Shown here piece after piece: positions 35,052-43,267 of a stretch of 64,000 bases of DNA; positions within the stretch are counted from its first letter, which is position 1, and the number at the start of each line of letters is the position of its first letter. The notes under the pieces are model-generated. The model was not told the origin of the DNA. It saw nothing but the letters and a program-made list of their open reading frames with translations, and did no database searches. The stretch covers positions 310,001 to 374,000 of the forward strand of contig NC_014377.1 of the NCBI RefSeq assembly GCF_000144645.1, given 5' to 3'. Source of the stretch: Thermosediminibacter oceani DSM 16646. Lineage in GTDB: Bacteria > Bacillota > Thermosediminibacteria > Thermosediminibacterales > Thermosediminibacteraceae. The position numbers were made by a program, and so were the translations under genes.

Positions 35052-35080
35052 TTGACAACCCGGAATATTTAATATATTAT
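35052..35080 (+). promoter_or_regulatory. Promoter of the cobalamin-uptake operon
   Basis: TTGACA (35052-35057), a 17-nt spacer and TATTAT (35075-35080) form a near-consensus sigma-A promoter. Transcription would start about 35088, some 35 nt before the riboswitch aptamer. Confidence 0.8.
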
Positions 35081-35124
35081 TAAAGAGGACGAACTAAAAT
35101 TTCTGAACATATAAACAAATTTAA

Positions 35125-35275
35125 TAGGCAGGCAACCATGGGAAGCCGGTGAAAATCCGGCGCGGTCCGCGCCACTGTGAGGAGGAGCGACCCCACTTAA
35201 TGCCACTGGGAATACCCCGGGAAGGCGTGGGGAAGCGGTGAATCCGAGCCAGGATACCTGGGGCTTGCCGTCGAA
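35125..35275 (+). promoter_or_regulatory. Cobalamin riboswitch
   Basis: The conserved class-I cobalamin elements appear in order: GGCAGGCAACC, GAAGCCGGTGAAAATCCGGC, GCGGTCCGCGCCACTGTGA, TGCCACTGGG, GGGAAGGC and AATCCGAGCCAGGATACC (the B12-box region), closed by GGCAGGC against GCTTGCC. The order and spacing match adenosylcobalamin aptamers. A terminator follows at 35312, so the riboswitch most likely stops transcription of the downstream uptake genes when B12 is plentiful. Confidence 0.95.
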
Positions 35276-35311
35276 CTGGAGCTCCCTACGCAGGATGGGG
35301 AATCAGCTTAC

Positions 35312-35345
35312 CCCTGGTTTATGTTGGAGCCAGGGTTTTTATTTT
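35312..35345 (+). terminator. Riboswitch-controlled terminator
   Basis: CCCTGG (35312-35317) pairs with CCAGGG (35330-35335) and is followed by TTTTTATTTT. It sits 37 nt after the aptamer, the expected place for the expression platform. The segment 35346-35499 holds only short frames (an eight-codon ORF at 35404) before the SLH gene. Confidence 0.85.
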
Positions 35346-35499
35346 ACTTCAGCGGCGGCGTTTTCAACCCCCCTGAGGGGAGCCCTAAAGGGGAGGTGTT
35401 GGAATGAAGCCGTTTTTTATATTGCAATGATTCTCGCGGTATCGCCATAGAGTGAAGTACGATAAGCAAAGAATACTCAGTGGAAGGTAGGTCGAGATT

Positions 35500-38400
35500 A
35501 TGCACTATAAAATTAAAAAACGCCTGGTAGCGCTGATTCTGGTCTTTGGTCTTTTATTGAGCATTTCTATAGATGGACAGGTCCTGACTACAGCTCTAGC
35601 TGCCTCGGGAAGTTATACTGCCGACCAGCTGGCCGAAAAGGCCGTGGAGTTTATTAACAGCAAATTCAAATCCGGAGAAAAAGTCGACGGCTACACCGCG
35701 TACGTTCTCGCACTGGCAGGGGAAGATCTTTCGTCCGAAAAGTGGACCAGGAATGATTTAAGCCTGAAGGAGGAGATTCAAAAGTCGGCGGATCTCCTCG
35801 GCAATCAAAACAGTCTCATAACATACATCCTGGCCACGCAGAACGTCGACGGCAGTTTTGGTCCTTATGCCAATGAATACGGCACAAAAGCATCCCTGCA
35901 GGCGCTGGCGATGGTGAAAGGCGACCTGCCGGAAGGGGATATTTCCAAGCAGGTGCAGGAAGCCATCAATAAGGCTATCGACTATTTTAAAGGCCGCTAT
36001 ATGAAGGGAAGCCTGGCTTATGACGCCCAGGGATTTAACTTCGACTATCGCTGTGTGGAGGCACTGGCCGACGCCAGTGAAGACCTGTCCGGATGGGTAT
36101 ATGGTGATAAGTCGCTTAAAAATATAGTCATCGAATCCGCCGAAGCCGCGGCGGATGACGCTGCAGTCCTTGATGCCGTTTACCTTGCGAAAGAGCTGAC
36201 CGCCCTTTACGCGGTAGAACCGCAATCGGATAAAATTGCAACTCTTGCTCAGGCTATTGCGGATAAGAAGAATACCGACGGCGATTCGATTTGGTTTGGG
36301 AACAGCATCTATGACGATGTGATGGTACTGACCGCTCTTGGCAAAGCGGACAAACTTAGCCTTATTGACCGGCAAAAGGCTTTTAATTATCTGGAAAAAT
36401 TCAAACATGAGCATAAGGACGCCTGGGGAAAACCCGCCGGGGCCGCATGGGGTGACTTTGAAGACGAAGAGCCCGACCTTACGGCCCAGGTGATTACGGC
36501 CTTAAGCTATTTTGAGGAGGCTCGCGATACCGGTAGCGATGTCTATAAAGCCATCGAGGAAGGCCTTGCTTATCTAAAGGATATCCAGGACGCTGACACG
36601 GCGGCCATAAAAGCCCGGTTCGACAACACTTTTGCCACCGCCGAAACCCTCATAGCTTTAAAATCGCTGGGGAAGAAATATGAAGATTATGCCGGAGCAG
36701 GTTCCGGCTGGGTGAAAAGATCGGGGACGAAGACCATTGCCCAGCACCTGCTAGCTTTAAGCCGCATGGGGGACGAGGATAGGGTAAACAGGCTGGTAAA
36801 TCTTTTAACGGAAAGGCATTCTTCGAACGGCTTTGACAACAGCGTTTACACCGACTTTTGGGCGTATATAGCGCTGGGCGAAGCGGGGAAGATAAAAGAA
36901 ATAAATGCGGAGGAAGCCAAAAGCTACATACTGGGTAAGCAGAGCGATGAAGGTTCCTGGGGAGAAAAATGGGGCGACGCATTTTACCCCGACTTTATGT
37001 CGACCGCTCAGGCCATTCGGGCGCTCACCTACCTATCCGCTTCAGGGGATACAAAGGTTCAGAATGCCATAGAAAAAGGCCTGGCTTATCTCAAAAGACA
37101 ATTGCAGCCCGACGGCAGCGTCTATATTACACAGCCGTTTCCGGACGATCCGGTGGTGGATACGGCCGAGGTAATTGTTACGCTGAAAAAATTGGGCGTC
37201 GATCCGAAGGAATGGAAGAGCGGCCAGGGCCTTACCCCCGTCGACTATATGATGCAGAAAGCGTTGAATTCCGACGGCAGTTTCGGTTCCGTCAAAAATA
37301 TTCTGGGTGCTGCGGAAGCCCTGCACGCATTTATCCTCTTGAAGGGCGAGACCGGATCGCCGGGGTCAGAGCCGGGATCTTCCGAGCCGGTTCCCGGTGA
37401 GGTTGAGTGCACCGTGGATATCGCGGTTGTGGGCAGGGATGGTGAGCTGCTCTTTGGCCCCGATTCCGTCACCGTAAGCCGGAACGGAAGGTGGGGATTG
37501 ACGGCCTTAGGTGCTCTGGATGCCACCGGCCTTGATTACGAGTGTGACGGCGGTTTTGTAAAGAGCATCGAAGGCCAGGCCAACCAGGGAATGAATGGGT
37601 GGATGTACAAGGTCAACGGAAAAGTGCCGTCGGTGGCGGCATCGGAAAAGGCGATTGGCGACGGGGATGAAATCATCTGGTGGTACAGCACGGATTATAG
37701 ATCATCAGGCCCCACGTGGGAAGACCTGATAAATAAAAATACGGTTCCGGAGCAGGAGGGGGTCGTTTCCGAGGACCTCGAAGAGCAGAACGAAAGACTT
37801 CCGGAGACCTTGCGGGTTTCCAAAGAAGCGCTGAAAGCCCTTGAAAATGTGGAGGAATTGCTCGAATTACAAAAAGCAGCGGGTATTGAAGAGATAGACA
37901 AAGCGGTTGTAGTCATCGGAAGCCGCGGACCGTTCAAACGCGACGAATTCTTGAAGTTAAAAGAAAAGCTTCTGCAAAACAGGGTAGATTTGCAGAAAGA
38001 GGTAGCTGCCTCTGAAGGTGCAGCCATCGTCGACGGAAAAGAGGAAGTTGCCCTCCTCGTTCCGGCCGGTGCATTGAAAAAGGATTTAGAAATATCGATC
38101 AAAGAGACCGACGGTACAATTCCCCCTGGTTTCAAAGCTTTATCGGGCATTTACGAAATTGCCCCTGAAGCAACCTCTCTTTCAATGCCCGCAACATTGG
38201 CAATAAGAGCGGCCGTCTCTCCCCTGGTAAAGCCGGAAAATCTGGTCCTGGCGCGGTATGATGATACAGAAGGCAGGTGGGTTGTCATCCCTGCCGTGGC
38301 CGACATGGCAAAAGGCGTCATTGTGGCCAGGATAGAACATTTCTCGAAAGTTGCCGTGTTTGCAAAGGAAGTCAGAAAATCCTTTGCGGATGTGAGCGAC

Positions 38401-38913
38401 GCGTCCTTCGGATGGGCCAAAGACGCCGTTGAAGCCCTGGCCGGTTCCGGGATTGTTACGGGAGTTTACGGGACTTTCTTCGAGCCGGGTCGAGCGTTGA
38501 CCAGGGCTGAGTTCGTCACCATGATTGTAAAAACCCTGGGCCTCGAGCCTAAGGCGGGCGAAGGAAGACAATTCAAAGACGTAAAAAAAGGCGCTTGGTA
38601 CGAGAAAGCCGTATACGCCGCGGTAGATGCGGGGCTTGTAACCGGATACGAAGACGGCACCTTCCGGCCGGACGGCAAAATTACTAGAGAACAACTCGCG
38701 GTTATCCTTGCCCGGGCGGTCGGTTTTACTCCCTCCGGGGAAAATCCGGATTTTAAAGATGGAAAATCGATTTCGCCCTGGAGCAGGGGGAGCGTTGCAG
38801 CTGCCGTAGCCGGTGAGTTGCTCGAAGGATTTGAAGATGGGACCTTCCGGCCCAAAGCGGCGGTCAGCAGAGCTCAAGCCGCTGTCGTAATCTACCGCTT
38901 CCTGGGGGAATAG
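35500..38913 (+). CDS. SLH-anchored transcobalamin-like protein: toroid repeats + DUF4430 + SLH
   Basis: A 1137-residue secreted surface protein. Domains: signal peptide (1 to about 35, cleavage near ALA-AS); alpha-alpha toroid repeats (about 40-610; repeat marks NVDGSFGPYANEY, SDEGSWGEKWG, QPDGSVYITQP, NSDGSFGSV); Gly/Ser/Pro linker (616-636); DUF4430 (about 638-732: RWGLTALGALDATGLDY, GMNGWMYKVNGKVP, GDEIIWWY); a charged and beta-rich region (740-950, EEVALLVPAGALKKDLEISI); three SLH repeats (about 958-1137; LTRAEFVTMIVKTLG, ITREQLAVILARAVG, VSRAQAAVVIYR). Toroid followed by DUF4430 is the order of transcobalamin and intrinsic factor. Placed first after a B12 riboswitch and before an ECF transporter, it likely captures corrinoids at the S-layer. 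Cobalamin binding itself is inferred. Confidence 0.85.
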   Translation: MHYKIKKRLVALILVFGLLLSISIDGQVLTTALAASGSYTADQLAEKAVEFINSKFKSGEKVDGYTAYVLALAGEDLSSEKWTRNDLSLKEEIQKSADLLGNQNSLITYILATQNVDGSFGPYANEYGTKASLQALAMVKGDLPEGDISKQVQEAINKAIDYFKGRYMKGSLAYDAQGFNFDYRCVEALADASEDLSGWVYGDKSLKNIVIESAEAAADDAAVLDAVYLAKELTALYAVEPQSDKIATLAQAIADKKNTDGDSIWFGNSIYDDVMVLTALGKADKLSLIDRQKAFNYLEKFKHEHKDAWGKPAGAAWGDFEDEEPDLTAQVITALSYFEEARDTGSDVYKAIEEGLAYLKDIQDADTAAIKARFDNTFATAETLIALKSLGKKYEDYAGAGSGWVKRSGTKTIAQHLLALSRMGDEDRVNRLVNLLTERHSSNGFDNSVYTDFWAYIALGEAGKIKEINAEEAKSYILGKQSDEGSWGEKWGDAFYPDFMSTAQAIRALTYLSASGDTKVQNAIEKGLAYLKRQLQPDGSVYITQPFPDDPVVDTAEVIVTLKKLGVDPKEWKSGQGLTPVDYMMQKALNSDGSFGSVKNILGAAEALHAFILLKGETGSPGSEPGSSEPVPGEVECTVDIAVVGRDGELLFGPDSVTVSRNGRWGLTALGALDATGLDYECDGGFVKSIEGQANQGMNGWMYKVNGKVPSVAASEKAIGDGDEIIWWYSTDYRSSGPTWEDLINKNTVPEQEGVVSEDLEEQNERLPETLRVSKEALKALENVEELLELQKAAGIEEIDKAVVVIGSRGPFKRDEFLKLKEKLLQNRVDLQKEVAASEGAAIVDGKEEVALLVPAGALKKDLEISIKETDGTIPPGFKALSGIYEIAPEATSLSMPATLAIRAAVSPLVKPENLVLARYDDTEGRWVVIPAVADMAKGVIVARIEHFSKVAVFAKEVRKSFADVSDASFGWAKDAVEALAGSGIVTGVYGTFFEPGRALTRAEFVTMIVKTLGLEPKAGEGRQFKDVKKGAWYEKAVYAAVDAGLVTGYEDGTFRPDGKITREQLAVILARAVGFTPSGENPDFKDGKSISPWSRGSVAAAVAGELLEGFEDGTFRPKAAVSRAQAAVVIYRFLGE

Positions 38914-38988
38914 TAGATTAATTTGAGGCCGGGGCGCGCTCTATGGTGCGCTCCCGGCTTTGCAACACTTATTCAGTGGGTGATTTCA

Positions 38989-39849
38989 GTGAAAAAGCGA
39001 ACTGTAAAGCTTGCAATTATGGCGTTCTTGTTGGCCGTAGCGGTGGGGTGTGTAATATATGCTCCAAAGATTTTTTATGACACGAAAGAAAGGCCCCTGA
39101 CAGCGGTTAAAGAGAATCAGGCTTTAGTACCCGGTGAAGCGAATACAAACCCGACAAAGGCCGGCACCGGTGAAGCTCCCAATGCTTCAATAGAAGGCCT
39201 TGCAGTGCAGAAAGACGGAGTCCTTACAAACACATCCCCTAAACTGGAAACGGGCACCGGTTCGGGTGGCACTAAGGTTGAAAAGAAGGTCATCGAAAAG
39301 GCTGAGCCTTCCGATGGGTCATCAAAGACCAAAAAGGAAGAGACTTCCGGCACAAAAAAGGAACCTTTCGGCAAAGGGGCTGCTTCCACGGGCGGTGCGG
39401 CGAGTTCTTCTCGCGATGATGCCCCACGGCATGTTCCGGAAAAAAAAGACACTGATAGCAGCGGTGATTCCACAAAGGAAACCGATTCGAGTTCCGCCGG
39501 TGCCGGTGGATGCCGGATTGAAATTGCCATTGTCGGAAAGGGAGGCCGGGTGCTGTACGGCCCTAAAACCGTGACGGTAAAAGAGAACAACCGGTGGGGT
39601 TTGACTGCACTGGGCGCTCTGGATTCCACCGGAATTGATTACAAGACCGGCCAGGGGTACGACGGTTTTGTTGTAAGCATAGCGGGTGAGACGAACAAAG
39701 GCATGGCGGGCTGGATGTACAGCGTCAATGATGAAGTTCCGATGGCAGCGGCCAGTGAGAAAAAAATCGAACCGGGCGACAGGATAATATGGTGGTACAA
39801 TGAGAGCATTAATAACCCCCCTCCCACCTGGGATAGCCTGGCAGAATAG
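38989..39849 (+). CDS. Membrane-tethered DUF4430 protein
   Basis: A 286-residue protein with an N-terminal hydrophobic segment (LAIMAFLLAVAVGCVIYAP), which could be a membrane anchor or a lipobox (AVGC). A 130-residue Ser/Thr/Lys/Glu/Gly linker follows, with a C-terminal DUF4430 domain (about 180-275: RWGLTALGALDSTGIDYKTG, GMAGWMYSVNDEVP, GDRIIWWY). The domain closely resembles the one in the preceding SLH protein. GTG 38989 follows GTGGGTGATTTCA; GTG 38980 is an alternative. It may be the membrane-proximal relay between the S-layer protein and the ECF transporter. Confidence 0.82.
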   Translation: MKKRTVKLAIMAFLLAVAVGCVIYAPKIFYDTKERPLTAVKENQALVPGEANTNPTKAGTGEAPNASIEGLAVQKDGVLTNTSPKLETGTGSGGTKVEKKVIEKAEPSDGSSKTKKEETSGTKKEPFGKGAASTGGAASSSRDDAPRHVPEKKDTDSSGDSTKETDSSSAGAGGCRIEIAIVGKGGRVLYGPKTVTVKENNRWGLTALGALDSTGIDYKTGQGYDGFVVSIAGETNKGMAGWMYSVNDEVPMAAASEKKIEPGDRIIWWYNESINNPPPTWDSLAE

Positions 39850-39861
39850 GGGAAAATCATC

Positions 39862-40791
39862 ATGCTTGACCGCTTTTTTTATAGAGAAAAAGGGCTCTTT
39901 CTGCAGAGCCTTCACCCGTTGTCAGCGCTCGTCTATATCGCGGTTTTGCTGACGCTGGCATTGATGTTCAACCACCCGCTATACCTCCTGGGGTTGCTAT
40001 CGATTACAGTTGCGGCCGTCAAAGCTGTTGATGGGTTTGATGCCTGGAAGACTTTTTTGAAAGTAAGCCTGGGGGCGACTTTTGTTATCATAATTGTGAA
40101 TGCGGTTACCGTGCGCGCCGGACAAACCGTCCTATGGCGGGGGCCGTACATTCCGGTTTTCGGAAGGTTGAACGTTTCATTAGAGGCCGTTTTATTTGGT
40201 GCGGTCATGGGATTAAGGCTCCTTTTAATAATGAGCATATTTTGCCTTTACAATTTTATGATTCATCCCGACCGCGTGCTGGATATGCTTTCCCGCTTTT
40301 CTTCCAAGTCCGGGCTGGTGCTTTCCCTGGCTGCCAGGATGTTTCCCGCTATGGTAAGTCGACTTGACGGCATCAGGGAGGTGCTGACTGCGAGAGGAGT
40401 CGATTTTAATGCCGGAACATTAAAAGAAAAAATGGCAAAATACGCCGTATTAATGAAAATACTGCTTTTAACTTCTCTGGAAGATTCTATGGAGACAGCA
40501 CAGGCCATGTACGCAAGGGCTTTTGGCAGCGGCAGGCGTTCATACTACGTTCGCGAAAACTTGCGACCAAGGGATACCGCATGCCTTGCCGCGAGTCTTG
40601 CCGCACTGGCGACGGCGGCATACGGTTTGGAGAAAGGCTTAGGCACCTTTAGATTTTACCCGCAGTCCGGCAATCTTATTGATGGGCATACGGGTATCGG
40701 GCTCCTTTTTGCCGTAATTTTTCTTTTATGCTTTCCGATACTCTTGAGCTGGGGGTGGCACACTTGCCCATTTTTGAAATCAAAGATCTGA
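39862..40791 (+). CDS. ECF transporter T component (EcfT/CbiQ-like)
   Basis: A 309-residue integral membrane protein. HPLSALVYIAVLLTLALMF, VMGLRLLLIMSIFCLYNF and IREVLTARGVDF are EcfT/CbiQ features. The coupling motifs LTARG and MYARAFGSG (Ala-Arg-Gly type) contact the ATPases. No other EcfT is nearby, so this probably forms a dedicated transporter with the fused ATPase and S component downstream. The 3' end overlaps the ATPase gene. Confidence 0.9.
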   Translation: MLDRFFYREKGLFLQSLHPLSALVYIAVLLTLALMFNHPLYLLGLLSITVAAVKAVDGFDAWKTFLKVSLGATFVIIIVNAVTVRAGQTVLWRGPYIPVFGRLNVSLEAVLFGAVMGLRLLLIMSIFCLYNFMIHPDRVLDMLSRFSSKSGLVLSLAARMFPAMVSRLDGIREVLTARGVDFNAGTLKEKMAKYAVLMKILLLTSLEDSMETAQAMYARAFGSGRRSYYVRENLRPRDTACLAASLAALATAAYGLEKGLGTFRFYPQSGNLIDGHTGIGLLFAVIFLLCFPILLSWGWHTCPFLKSKI

Positions 40792-42428
40792 CTTATTTTT
40801 ACCCGGAAAGCCAAAGGCCCGCATTGAAAGACGTAAACATGAGCATTGAAGAGGGCGAGTTTTTGCTCGTTACCGGCGGTTCCGGCTCGGGGAAATCTTC
40901 TCTGGCGCGGGTGCTGGCCGGCCTGATACCCGGATTTTCCGGCGGCCGCATCAGCGGCAGCGTTTTTTTTCGGGGAAAAGATATAGAGCAAATTGACCGG
41001 CGCACTATGGCAGGAGAGGTAGGGATAGTATTCCAGGATCCGGAAAAACAGCTGGTGAAGACGAGCGTGGAGGCAGAAATTGCGTTCGGCCTGGAAAACC
41101 TTGGCCTTCCTCAGCAGGAAATGGCCCGCCGGGTTGCCGAAGTCATGAGTTTTTTGGGCCTTGCGGATTTGAGGCGAGAGTTTACGGCGAAATTGTCCGG
41201 CGGCCAAAAACAAAAACTTGCCCTGGCTGCAGTCCTGGCCATGCAACCCTCGGTTTTAATTCTCGATGAGCCCACTTCACAGCTGGACCCGGTGGCGGCG
41301 GAGGATTTTTTAAATGTCGTAAAACGTTTGAATGAAGATATGGGCCTCACCGTGATCTTAATAGAACAGCGGCTGGAAAGATGTTTTCATCTTGCCGACA
41401 AAGTTTTGATTATGGAAGATGGAAGAATAAGGTTTGAAGGCACACCTGAGCAGGTGGCGCGTCGGGCGGCGTTTTGTGAAAACCCCTTTATTCCACCGGT
41501 AGCTCGCTTCTTCGGTAAGGTGGGTTTTAATACCATTCCCGTCACTGTAAAAGATGGACGGAGAATGCTGAAACAAAATTTTAACCCTGCTCCGGGAAAT
41601 TTTTCCATGAGCTCTTCAGAAGGGATGCATGAAAGGGAACCGCTCATACGCATGGAAGGAGTCTGGTTTACATATCCCGACGGCAGGGAAGCGCTTCAGG
41701 ATATAAACCTGGAGATTTGCGCCGGAGAGCTAGTGGCAGTGATAGGACCCAACGGGTCGGGCAAATCCACACTCCTCAAAAACATGGCGGGCCTGTTAAA
41801 ACCCGGGCGCGGCCGGGTGATAATGATGGGCAACAAGCAGCCAAAAAGCGCCACTCGAACCACCTGGGACCCCAGCGTGGGTTACCTTTCCCAGAATCCA
41901 AATGATTATCTTTTTCAGGATACTGTAGAGGAAGAATTATTATACACATTAAAAAACTTTGGTATCGCTTCGAACGGAGCGGTTGATGAAATAATAGAAA
42001 AGCTTTCTTTGGGAGACTTTCGGCGCGTAAACCCGCGGGATCTGAGCTACGGTGAACGCCAGAGGGTGGCTCTGGCTTCGGTGCTGGTCACCGGGCCGAA
42101 GCTTTTGCTGCTGGATGAGCCCACCAAGGGGCTGGACTATCGCCTGAAAAGTGACTTGGGGGAGGTGCTGGCGGAGTTCTGTAGACAGGGGGCAGCTGTC
42201 GTGCTGACCACCCATGATGTCGAATTCGCGGCGAAATACGCATCGAGGGTGATCATGCTGTTCTGCGGCAGGGTGATATGTGACGGCCCGGTGCATCAGG
42301 TCCTTTCGGATTCAATTTTTTATTCCACCCAGATCGGCAGGATGTGCCGGGGTTTCGCGGACGGTATTCTGACTCCGGAGGAAGCTTTAGCTGTATTTAA
42401 ACCCGCGTTGGCTAAAATAATTAATTAA
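40764..42428 (+). CDS. Fused double ECF ATPase (EcfA-EcfA)
   Basis: A 554-residue protein with two full ABC cassettes. Cassette 1: Walker A GGSGSGKSS (K44), signature LSGGQKQ (about 144), Walker B LILDEPTSQLD. Cassette 2: Walker A GPNGSGKST (about 329), signature LSYGERQR (about 427), Walker B LLLDEPTKGLD. A linker of about 60 residues joins them. Such fusions replace the EcfA1/A2 pair. TTG 40764 after GGGGGTGG gives a natural start (MPIFEIKDLTYFYP). It energises the adjacent T/S components. Confidence 0.92.
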   Translation: MPIFEIKDLTYFYPESQRPALKDVNMSIEEGEFLLVTGGSGSGKSSLARVLAGLIPGFSGGRISGSVFFRGKDIEQIDRRTMAGEVGIVFQDPEKQLVKTSVEAEIAFGLENLGLPQQEMARRVAEVMSFLGLADLRREFTAKLSGGQKQKLALAAVLAMQPSVLILDEPTSQLDPVAAEDFLNVVKRLNEDMGLTVILIEQRLERCFHLADKVLIMEDGRIRFEGTPEQVARRAAFCENPFIPPVARFFGKVGFNTIPVTVKDGRRMLKQNFNPAPGNFSMSSSEGMHEREPLIRMEGVWFTYPDGREALQDINLEICAGELVAVIGPNGSGKSTLLKNMAGLLKPGRGRVIMMGNKQPKSATRTTWDPSVGYLSQNPNDYLFQDTVEEELLYTLKNFGIASNGAVDEIIEKLSLGDFRRVNPRDLSYGERQRVALASVLVTGPKLLLLDEPTKGLDYRLKSDLGEVLAEFCRQGAAVVLTTHDVEFAAKYASRVIMLFCGRVICDGPVHQVLSDSIFYSTQIGRMCRGFADGILTPEEALAVFKPALAKIIN

Positions 42429-42448
42429 GTATTAAAAGGAAGATGGTT

Positions 42449-43156
42449 ATGAAAAAGATGCTGTCAAAAATTCTGTTCTGGCTCGGCTTTGGGATTATCC
42501 CGATTTTTATGGCGGCTGCCATGTCGGGAAAGACTACTATCTCCGGGGAATGGGGCGTGGCATCTTACATTGTCATCTTTGCCGCCATCGCTTTGATGTA
42601 CCTGGGGTTTGAACTTGAAACTTCGTCTCCCAAAAGAATAGCCGTGATAGCCGTGCTGGGTGCCGTAGGGGCTGCGGGGCGGATTGCCTTTGCTGCCATT
42701 CCCAACATCCAGCCCACCACATTTATAGCGATCGCTTCGGGGTATGTCTTCGGCCCCAGCGCCGGTTTTATGGTGGGTTCAACTGCGGCCCTGGTTTCAA
42801 ACTTTTTTCTAGGGCATGGGCCCTGGACACCGTGGCAGATGTTTGCCTGGGGCCTTGCCGGCTCATCGGCAGGCATCGTAAAACGCCTGTCACCGCATAT
42901 AGGCAAATGGGGTATGGCATTTTTCTGCCTTTTATGGGGGTATTTATTTGGATGGATATTAAACCTGTGGTCCTGGATCGCCTTTGTTAAGCCGTTAAAC
43001 TGGCAGAGTTTTCTCGCAGTCTGCACGGCAAGTTTCTGGTTTGACACTTTGCACGCTGTAGGCAATGCGGCCTTTTACCTGCTGTTTGGCACCAGCTTTA
43101 TGAAAATACTCGAGCGGTTTCGGCACAAAATGGCAGCGACCCAAAAAATTTCTTGA
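42449..43156 (+). CDS. ECF transporter substrate-binding S component, probably cobalamin (CbrT-like)
   Basis: A 235-residue membrane protein with about six or seven helices. GRIAFAAIPNIQPTTFIAIA, GYVFGPSAGFMVGSTAALVS, NFFLGHGPWTPWQMFAWGLA and AFYLLFG are typical of the large S components that occur with DUF4430 genes and B12 riboswitches. It has the size and motif pattern of CbrT-type proteins, not of CbiM or BtuM. ATG 42449 is optimally spaced from AAAGGAAG; ATG 42443 is too close. Cobalamin specificity is inferred from riboswitch and neighbours. Confidence 0.82.
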   Translation: MKKMLSKILFWLGFGIIPIFMAAAMSGKTTISGEWGVASYIVIFAAIALMYLGFELETSSPKRIAVIAVLGAVGAAGRIAFAAIPNIQPTTFIAIASGYVFGPSAGFMVGSTAALVSNFFLGHGPWTPWQMFAWGLAGSSAGIVKRLSPHIGKWGMAFFCLLWGYLFGWILNLWSWIAFVKPLNWQSFLAVCTASFWFDTLHAVGNAAFYLLFGTSFMKILERFRHKMAATQKIS

Positions 43157-43238: not shown

Positions 43239-43267
43239 GGCGGCAGGGTTAACCTTGCCGCCTTTTT
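43239..43267 (+). terminator. Terminator of the cobalamin-uptake operon
   Basis: GGCGGCAGGGTT (43239-43250) directly abuts AACCTTGCCGCC (43251-43262), giving a strong GC stem with a tight loop, followed by TTTTT. Confidence 0.85.

Follow-up and report, generated by a model that had tools for sequence, protein, structure and literature searches.

Genetic organisation of the operon

The window analysed here is a 64-kb stretch of the complete genome (2,280,035 bases) of Thermosediminibacter oceani DSM 16646 (NC_014377.1, positions 310,001 to 374,000). Within it, a promoter and a cobalamin riboswitch lead into five genes, which encode a large protein anchored to the S-layer by SLH repeats, a second, membrane-tethered protein that carries the same DUF4430 domain, and the three parts of an energy-coupling factor (ECF) transporter (Table 1). 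Our computations place this operon under riboswitch control, relate its S component to the cobalamin importer CbrT and the fold of the SLH protein to the B12 carriers of animals, and find the arrangement conserved across genera. We consider the operon a probable uptake system for corrinoids (the vitamin B12 family) in which the SLH protein serves as the surface catcher.

Table 1 Features of the operon, with positions in the window
Feature	Position	Strand	Evidence
Sigma-70-type promoter, TTGACA-17-TATTAT	35052..35080	+	consensus scan, 11/12 bases
Cobalamin riboswitch aptamer core, model positions 46-168 of 189	35140..35258	+	RF00174, 99.9 bits, E=8.7e-24
Intrinsic terminator CCCTGG..CCAGGG + TTTTTATTTT, between aptamer and gene	35312..35345	+	hairpin and T-run
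SLH-anchored double-toroid DUF4430 protein, 1137 residues	35500..38913	+	open reading frame and profile matches
Signal peptide, residues about 1-35	35500..35604	+	read from sequence, hydrophobic stretch with ALAAS end
Outer alpha/alpha toroid, residues 36-96 and about 407-618	35605..37353	+	model of residues 36-740, alignment
Inner nested toroid, residues about 97-405	35788..36714	+	alignment, model
DUF4430 (transcobalamin C-terminal-like beta-grasp) domain	37405..37719	+	PF14478 E=6.8e-15; orthologue Foldseek match to transcobalamin beta domain 5no0
Three SLH repeats	38377..38898	+	PF00395 E=5.7e-38, 3 stretches; Sap S-layer protein 6bt4
Second DUF4430 protein, N-terminal hydrophobic anchor, long Ser/Thr/Glu-rich linker	38980..39849	+	PF14478 E=1.5e-17
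EcfT (CbiQ family) transmembrane coupling protein	39862..40791	+	PF02361 E=1.1e-9
Fused double ECF ATPase (EcfA-EcfA')	40728..42428	+	TIGR04520 and TIGR04521 above cut-off, two copies
CbrT-like ECF S component	42443..43156	+	6FNP sequence match
Operon-end intrinsic terminator, 10-bp stem, TTTTTAAATT tail	43239..43262	+	closes transcription unit

The riboswitch is the only Rfam match within the window, and its covariance model score stands against a gathering cut-off of 31.5 bits. RF00174 aligns over the aptamer core alone (positions ~45-169) both here and at loci L040, L042, L045 and L079, the outer part of the model being missing. The terminator that follows the aptamer is likely the expression platform of the riboswitch. 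Its hairpin is the same in the sister genomes (L040-L042), and a terminator-like hairpin lies between riboswitch and open reading frame (ORF) at 23 of 32 loci. Downstream of the aptamer, the leader folds with an unremarkable minimum free energy (z = -0.14), so the switch mechanism is argued from the hairpin and T-run only. The tethered DUF4430 protein more likely starts at the GTG at 38980 than at the TTG at 38923. Promoter, cobalamin riboswitch, terminator and five-gene order had all been claimed in an earlier reading of this DNA (the original prediction), and each element was found in its place.

The SLH protein had been described as having a single toroid, which needs correction: a structure model and the alignment reveal two, one nested within the other. 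In the AlphaFold2 model (residues 36-740, built on a 21-sequence alignment, mean predicted local distance difference test score (pLDDT) 90.5), a complete inner toroid interrupts the chain of the outer one and the DUF4430 domain comes after both. Strands 645-648 and 651-655 of the model directly follow helix 634-640, in the region that we compared with the definition of the SLBB superfamily (PMC1796856). Inner and outer toroids share 34% identity over 166 residues, and the inner one is absent in six of the 21 aligned homologues. It is an internal duplication that has been gained or lost more than once, because Moorella has both forms (double in L072, single in L075). Toroid and DUF4430 form the conserved core of the alignment, with nearly all invariant residues in the outer toroid and DUF4430. 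The Pfam scan matched the toroid to SQHop_cyclase_C (E=1.5e-9) and Prenyltrans only, and scored the DUF4430 domains of the operon at 55.7 and 64.2 bits against a cut-off of 23.8; in a sequence search of the PDB, neither the isolated DUF4430 domain nor the tethered DUF4430 protein had a significant match.

Many of the operons in relatives carry an additional gene. A secreted toroid-only protein is encoded between the tethered DUF4430 gene and EcfT at L072:5195-6565, with equivalents in L063, L066, L077 and L079, and the C-terminal end of the L072 protein is a copper amine oxidase N-terminal-like domain. By eye, no correlation was seen between single-toroid SLH proteins and the presence of this extra gene in the operon.

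Riboswitch association and the CbrT-like S component

The cobalamin riboswitch is a constant neighbour of this gene family. RF00174 lies directly upstream, on the same strand, at 20 of the 20 SLH toroid orthologue loci with readable upstream DNA (the window, L040-L045, L047, L051, L062, L064-L066, L068-L070, L075-L077 and L079). From the density of cobalamin riboswitches in the taxonomic class, about 1.66 per Mb in 26 genomes, the chance that a gene has one on its own strand no more than 1 kb upstream is ~0.0008. Orthologues L063, L071, L072 and L074 begin about 500 bases or less from the end of a contig and were left out of the count. The genera represented include Thermosediminibacter, Thermovorax, Moorella, Pelotomaculum, Desulfallas and Desulfovirgula. 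This was the outcome of a search, proposed beforehand, for genes combining SLH, toroid and DUF4430 beside cobalamin riboswitches.

For a broader test, 20 further Bacillota families, none of them in this class, each supplied their best DUF4430 locus. A cobalamin riboswitch was found upstream on the same strand at 14 of the 19 testable loci (L095 is cut by a contig end and was left out); these loci are the top-scoring ones of the families listed rather than a random draw and are related by descent, so binomial figures overstate their independence. Among the remaining five, a CbrT-like S gene adjoins L081 and L088 and an ECF module adjoins L086 and L092; L090 has neither a riboswitch upstream nor an adjoining ECF module or CbrT-like S gene. 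No riboswitch was seen at the distant class members L053-L057, but their DUF4430 genes sit at contig ends and so decide nothing. No other riboswitch class lay upstream of the 20 orthologous loci. Homologues under non-B12 riboswitches had been named beforehand as evidence against a role in B12 uptake, and the prediction passed this test.

Several related loci vary the arrangement. Two cobalamin riboswitches stand in tandem upstream of the toroid gene in L051, L062, L066, L070, L083 and L089. Relatives G012 and G013 (L046, L048-L050) have further riboswitch-linked DUF4430 genes, with giant proteins of up to 1935 residues, and in L046 and L050 a different cluster, without ECF genes, begins with a DUF4430 lipoprotein-like gene. 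The operon is also present on the L076 contig of a metagenome-assembled genome labelled Deltaproteobacteria, by transfer or mis-binning. The SLH toroid-DUF4430 gene of Candidatus Desulfopertinax lies at L068:7109-10916.

Searched against all solved structures, the S component had a single match, 6FNP chain A (E=4.6e-15), and with a profile of its 17-member family the match to 6FNP reached E=8.1e-26, with the next at 0.014. 6FNP is the ECF-CbrT complex of Lactobacillus delbrueckii, a proven importer of cobalamin and cobinamide (PMC5997447). By sequence, the S component is clearly of CbrT type, with CbrT as its nearest solved relative, which bears out the original prediction. The other riboswitch-linked S gene of the genome (L036) has no CbrT match, so a match to 6FNP is not something that any S component would give. 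The two transporters have the S component family and an ECF module in common, but the L. delbrueckii module serves eight S components, whereas the operon here has a dedicated EcfT and fused ATPases, and it alone has a large S-layer protein in front.

Lactobacillus CbrT has its own context, a nrdJ-cbrS-cbrT-pduO cluster (PMC5997447). In L. rhamnosus, a DUF4430 gene lies near the rtpR gene, and the annotators of a 2023 proteomics table tied a lipoprotein of this species to a cobalamin ECF system (PMC9963975); the DUF4430/CbrT pairing may extend to Lactobacillus. Elsewhere, ATPase and S component matches fall in single ORFs of about 870-890 residues (L080:5728-8412, L083:12142-14802 and L094:10635-13232), which suggests that these encode ATPase-S fusions.

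Comparison with animal B12 carriers

The original prediction held that the toroid and DUF4430 together resemble the B12 carriers of animals, and the structure models agree with this. A natural single-toroid orthologue (L073) was modelled with a pLDDT of 89.3, and without exception its top 15 Foldseek matches (E 4e-10 to 2e-8) were to transcobalamin, haptocorrin or intrinsic factor; a squalene-hopene cyclase followed as the next fold (E 2e-4). For the double-toroid model from the window, animal carriers were within the top ten, behind one squalene-hopene cyclase. Taken by itself in VIA-align, the toroid has its best fit to terpene cyclases (Z 22); among the matches listed, those covering both domains are the animal carriers (Z about 19). 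Aligned by sequence only against solved structures, the toroid matched terpene cyclases and prenyltransferases and no transcobalamin, so the relationship to the carriers rests on the fold comparison and DUF4430, not on toroid sequence. As modelled, the toroid and DUF4430 pair is akin in fold to transcobalamin, haptocorrin and intrinsic factor.

The SLH protein and the animal carriers share the two folds in the same order, toroid and then beta domain. They differ in that the SLH protein has an extra nested toroid and an SLH anchor and has neither a PF01122 match nor a conserved histidine; animal carriers use receptor-mediated uptake, whereas the operon here has a bacterial ECF transporter. Foldseek also matched PDB 3u7z, a Ruminococcus gnavus protein titled putative metal binding protein, over about 100 residues. 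The match probably covers the DUF4430 end of the model, and the protein may merit a B12-binding test.

Proposed uptake route, alternatives and earlier work

In the following scheme, we infer that the SLH protein binds a corrinoid, which corrinoid this is, and in what order it is handed over. At high intracellular B12, the riboswitch would halt transcription at the leader terminator, and at low B12 the operon would be read. The SLH protein, held in the cell wall or S-layer, would hold a corrinoid between its outer toroid and DUF4430, in the manner of transcobalamin and intrinsic factor. From there the corrinoid would go to the membrane-tethered DUF4430 protein and the CbrT-like S component, and the EcfT/ATPase module would drive its import. 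The SLH protein has two toroids and one DUF4430, and the operon adds a second, membrane-tethered DUF4430. It is conceivable, if doubtful, that the inner toroid docks the tethered DUF4430 and that the corrinoid passes between toroid/DUF4430 pairs across the wall. No equivalent of such a two-pair relay was found in the literature searched.

Several observations weigh against this scheme. Compared by itself, the toroid is as close to terpene cyclases and sugar epimerases as to the carriers, or closer (VIA Z about 20-22); it has no match to the animal family PF01122 in the Pfam scan and, across the 21-sequence alignment, lacks a conserved histidine able to serve as cobalt ligand. The placement of the domains is unlike that in cobalamin-bound transcobalamin: the root-mean-square deviation is 8-9 Å over about 325-339 residues for the double-toroid model and 23-24 Å over both domains for the single-toroid model. 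These models are ligand-free and have a linker pLDDT below 50, so relative domain placement is not fixed and a corrinoid cleft is neither shown nor refuted. In the L068 orthologue, the SLH protein stands under a riboswitch with no ECF genes adjoining. Lastly, the genome has corrinoid synthesis genes (cbiA, cbiD, cbiG, cobS and cobT-type) and another importer, of FecCD/BtuF-like type, that has a riboswitch to itself, so the cell has no obvious need to scavenge B12.

These genes also bear on a possible alternative, in which the operon serves mainly another B12-related compound (cobinamide, an incomplete corrinoid or alpha-ribazole) for salvage in a B12-making host. The synthesis genes, together with the CbiM cobalt importer and the BtuF/FecCD importer, lie near riboswitches in the genome and make plain B12 import partly redundant. 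The riboswitch-linked loci L037, L038 and L039 carry, in turn, CbiM-CbiQ-CbiO with cbi genes, the BtuF/FecCD importer with cobS-type genes, and a cobT-type gene. At L036:2247-3736 (G000:C1:2020746 onward), a cobalamin riboswitch precedes the second ECF S gene and an AIRS-domain gene, which together resemble a CblT/CblS alpha-ribazole salvage pair. This riboswitch-driven pair seems a better candidate for alpha-ribazole salvage than the operon. As for cobinamide, CbrT carries it too, but binds cobalamin about 4-fold more tightly (PMC5997447).

It is unlikely, in our assessment, that the ECF transporter imports corrinoids while the SLH toroid-DUF4430 protein has some other ligand, for example a wall polysaccharide or a protein, and serves only to position the system in the envelope. 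Toroids are common to sugar epimerases, GH76/GH105 enzymes and terpene cyclases (VIA Z 18-22), fused domains may tether such proteins to the surface according to a passage of Burroughs et al. (PMC1796856), and the cleft between toroid and DUF4430 is not confidently predicted. When toroid and DUF4430 are searched jointly, however, the animal B12 carriers lead the next fold by at least four orders of magnitude in E-value, and the concentration of invariant residues in the outer toroid and DUF4430 likewise speaks against a purely positional role.

Import of cobalt ions rather than corrinoids is very improbable. Cobalt importers are often under cobalamin riboswitches, EcfT is a CbiQ family member and the ATPases resemble CbiO by score, but the operon has no CbiM or CbiN, its S component is CbrT-like, and the genome has a separate CbiM-CbiQ-CbiO set at L037 with a riboswitch to itself; on these grounds we rejected this reading. 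We likewise rejected a secreted terpene cyclase or prenyltransferase-type enzyme, which the SQHop_cyclase_C match and the VIA Z of 22 to terpene cyclases might suggest and which is hardly credible in a protein that is secreted, SLH-anchored, DUF4430-fused and B12-controlled and whose DxDD motif is not conserved (missing in 20 of 21 aligned sequences).

The preferred reading, a corrinoid uptake system with a surface catcher, has a precedent. Passages of a 2007 paper by Burroughs, Balaji, Iyer and Aravind define the SLBB superfamily, record fusions of toroid and SLBB in bacteria, and propose that both domains bind B12 and that such surface proteins scavenge it; they also describe operons in which a second SLBB paralogue occurs with CbiO/CbiQ-like genes, hosts usually without key B12 synthesis enzymes, and a possible lateral transfer from Gram-positive bacteria to animals (PMC1796856). 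The B12-catcher idea of the original prediction is partly supported, by the riboswitch, the kinship to CbrT and the fold, but its outline is not new. A Moorella protein with an immunoglobulin-like domain listed in the same paper is probably the L075 orthologue, to judge from the Ig-like stretch readable in L075 between toroid and DUF4430, and the Moorella and Desulfotomaculum examples given there probably belong to the same family as L075 and L062-L070. The operon resembles the transcobalamin-like SLBB clade, as these passages describe it, in its fusion of a toroid to the same beta-grasp domain, its place at a Gram-positive surface, its second SLBB protein and its CbiO/CbiQ-like genes. The 2007 passages do not mention the riboswitch, S-layer anchor, CbrT-type S component or nested double toroid, and the B12 synthesis genes of T. 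oceani run against the tendency reported there, which is not a defining one.

The operon is real and well supported, and is another case of a system predicted in 2007. To that prediction, our analysis adds riboswitch linkage across families, the assignment of the S component to CbrT, the SLH anchor, the nesting of two toroids and the fold ranking, together with a host that encodes B12 synthesis genes and a BtuF/FecCD-type importer. The role proposed here for the SLH protein, catching B12 at the surface before a membrane transporter imports it, is analogous to that of Bacteroides BtuG and BtuH, which have unrelated domains and work with an outer-membrane BtuB system. B12-binding Bacteroides proteins carry DUF4465 (PMC13398666), which had no match in the operon proteins in the Pfam scan. 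No bench test of B12 binding by a bacterial DUF4430 was found in the open literature searched, nor was one found in the literature searched for the 2007 idea that animal carriers descend from such proteins. Capture of B12 outside the membrane is poorly known in Gram-positive bacteria. With the riboswitch link across families and the link to CbrT, what was a guess from the fold becomes a specific system that can be tested, and its proteins, coming from a thermophile, may be easy to purify.

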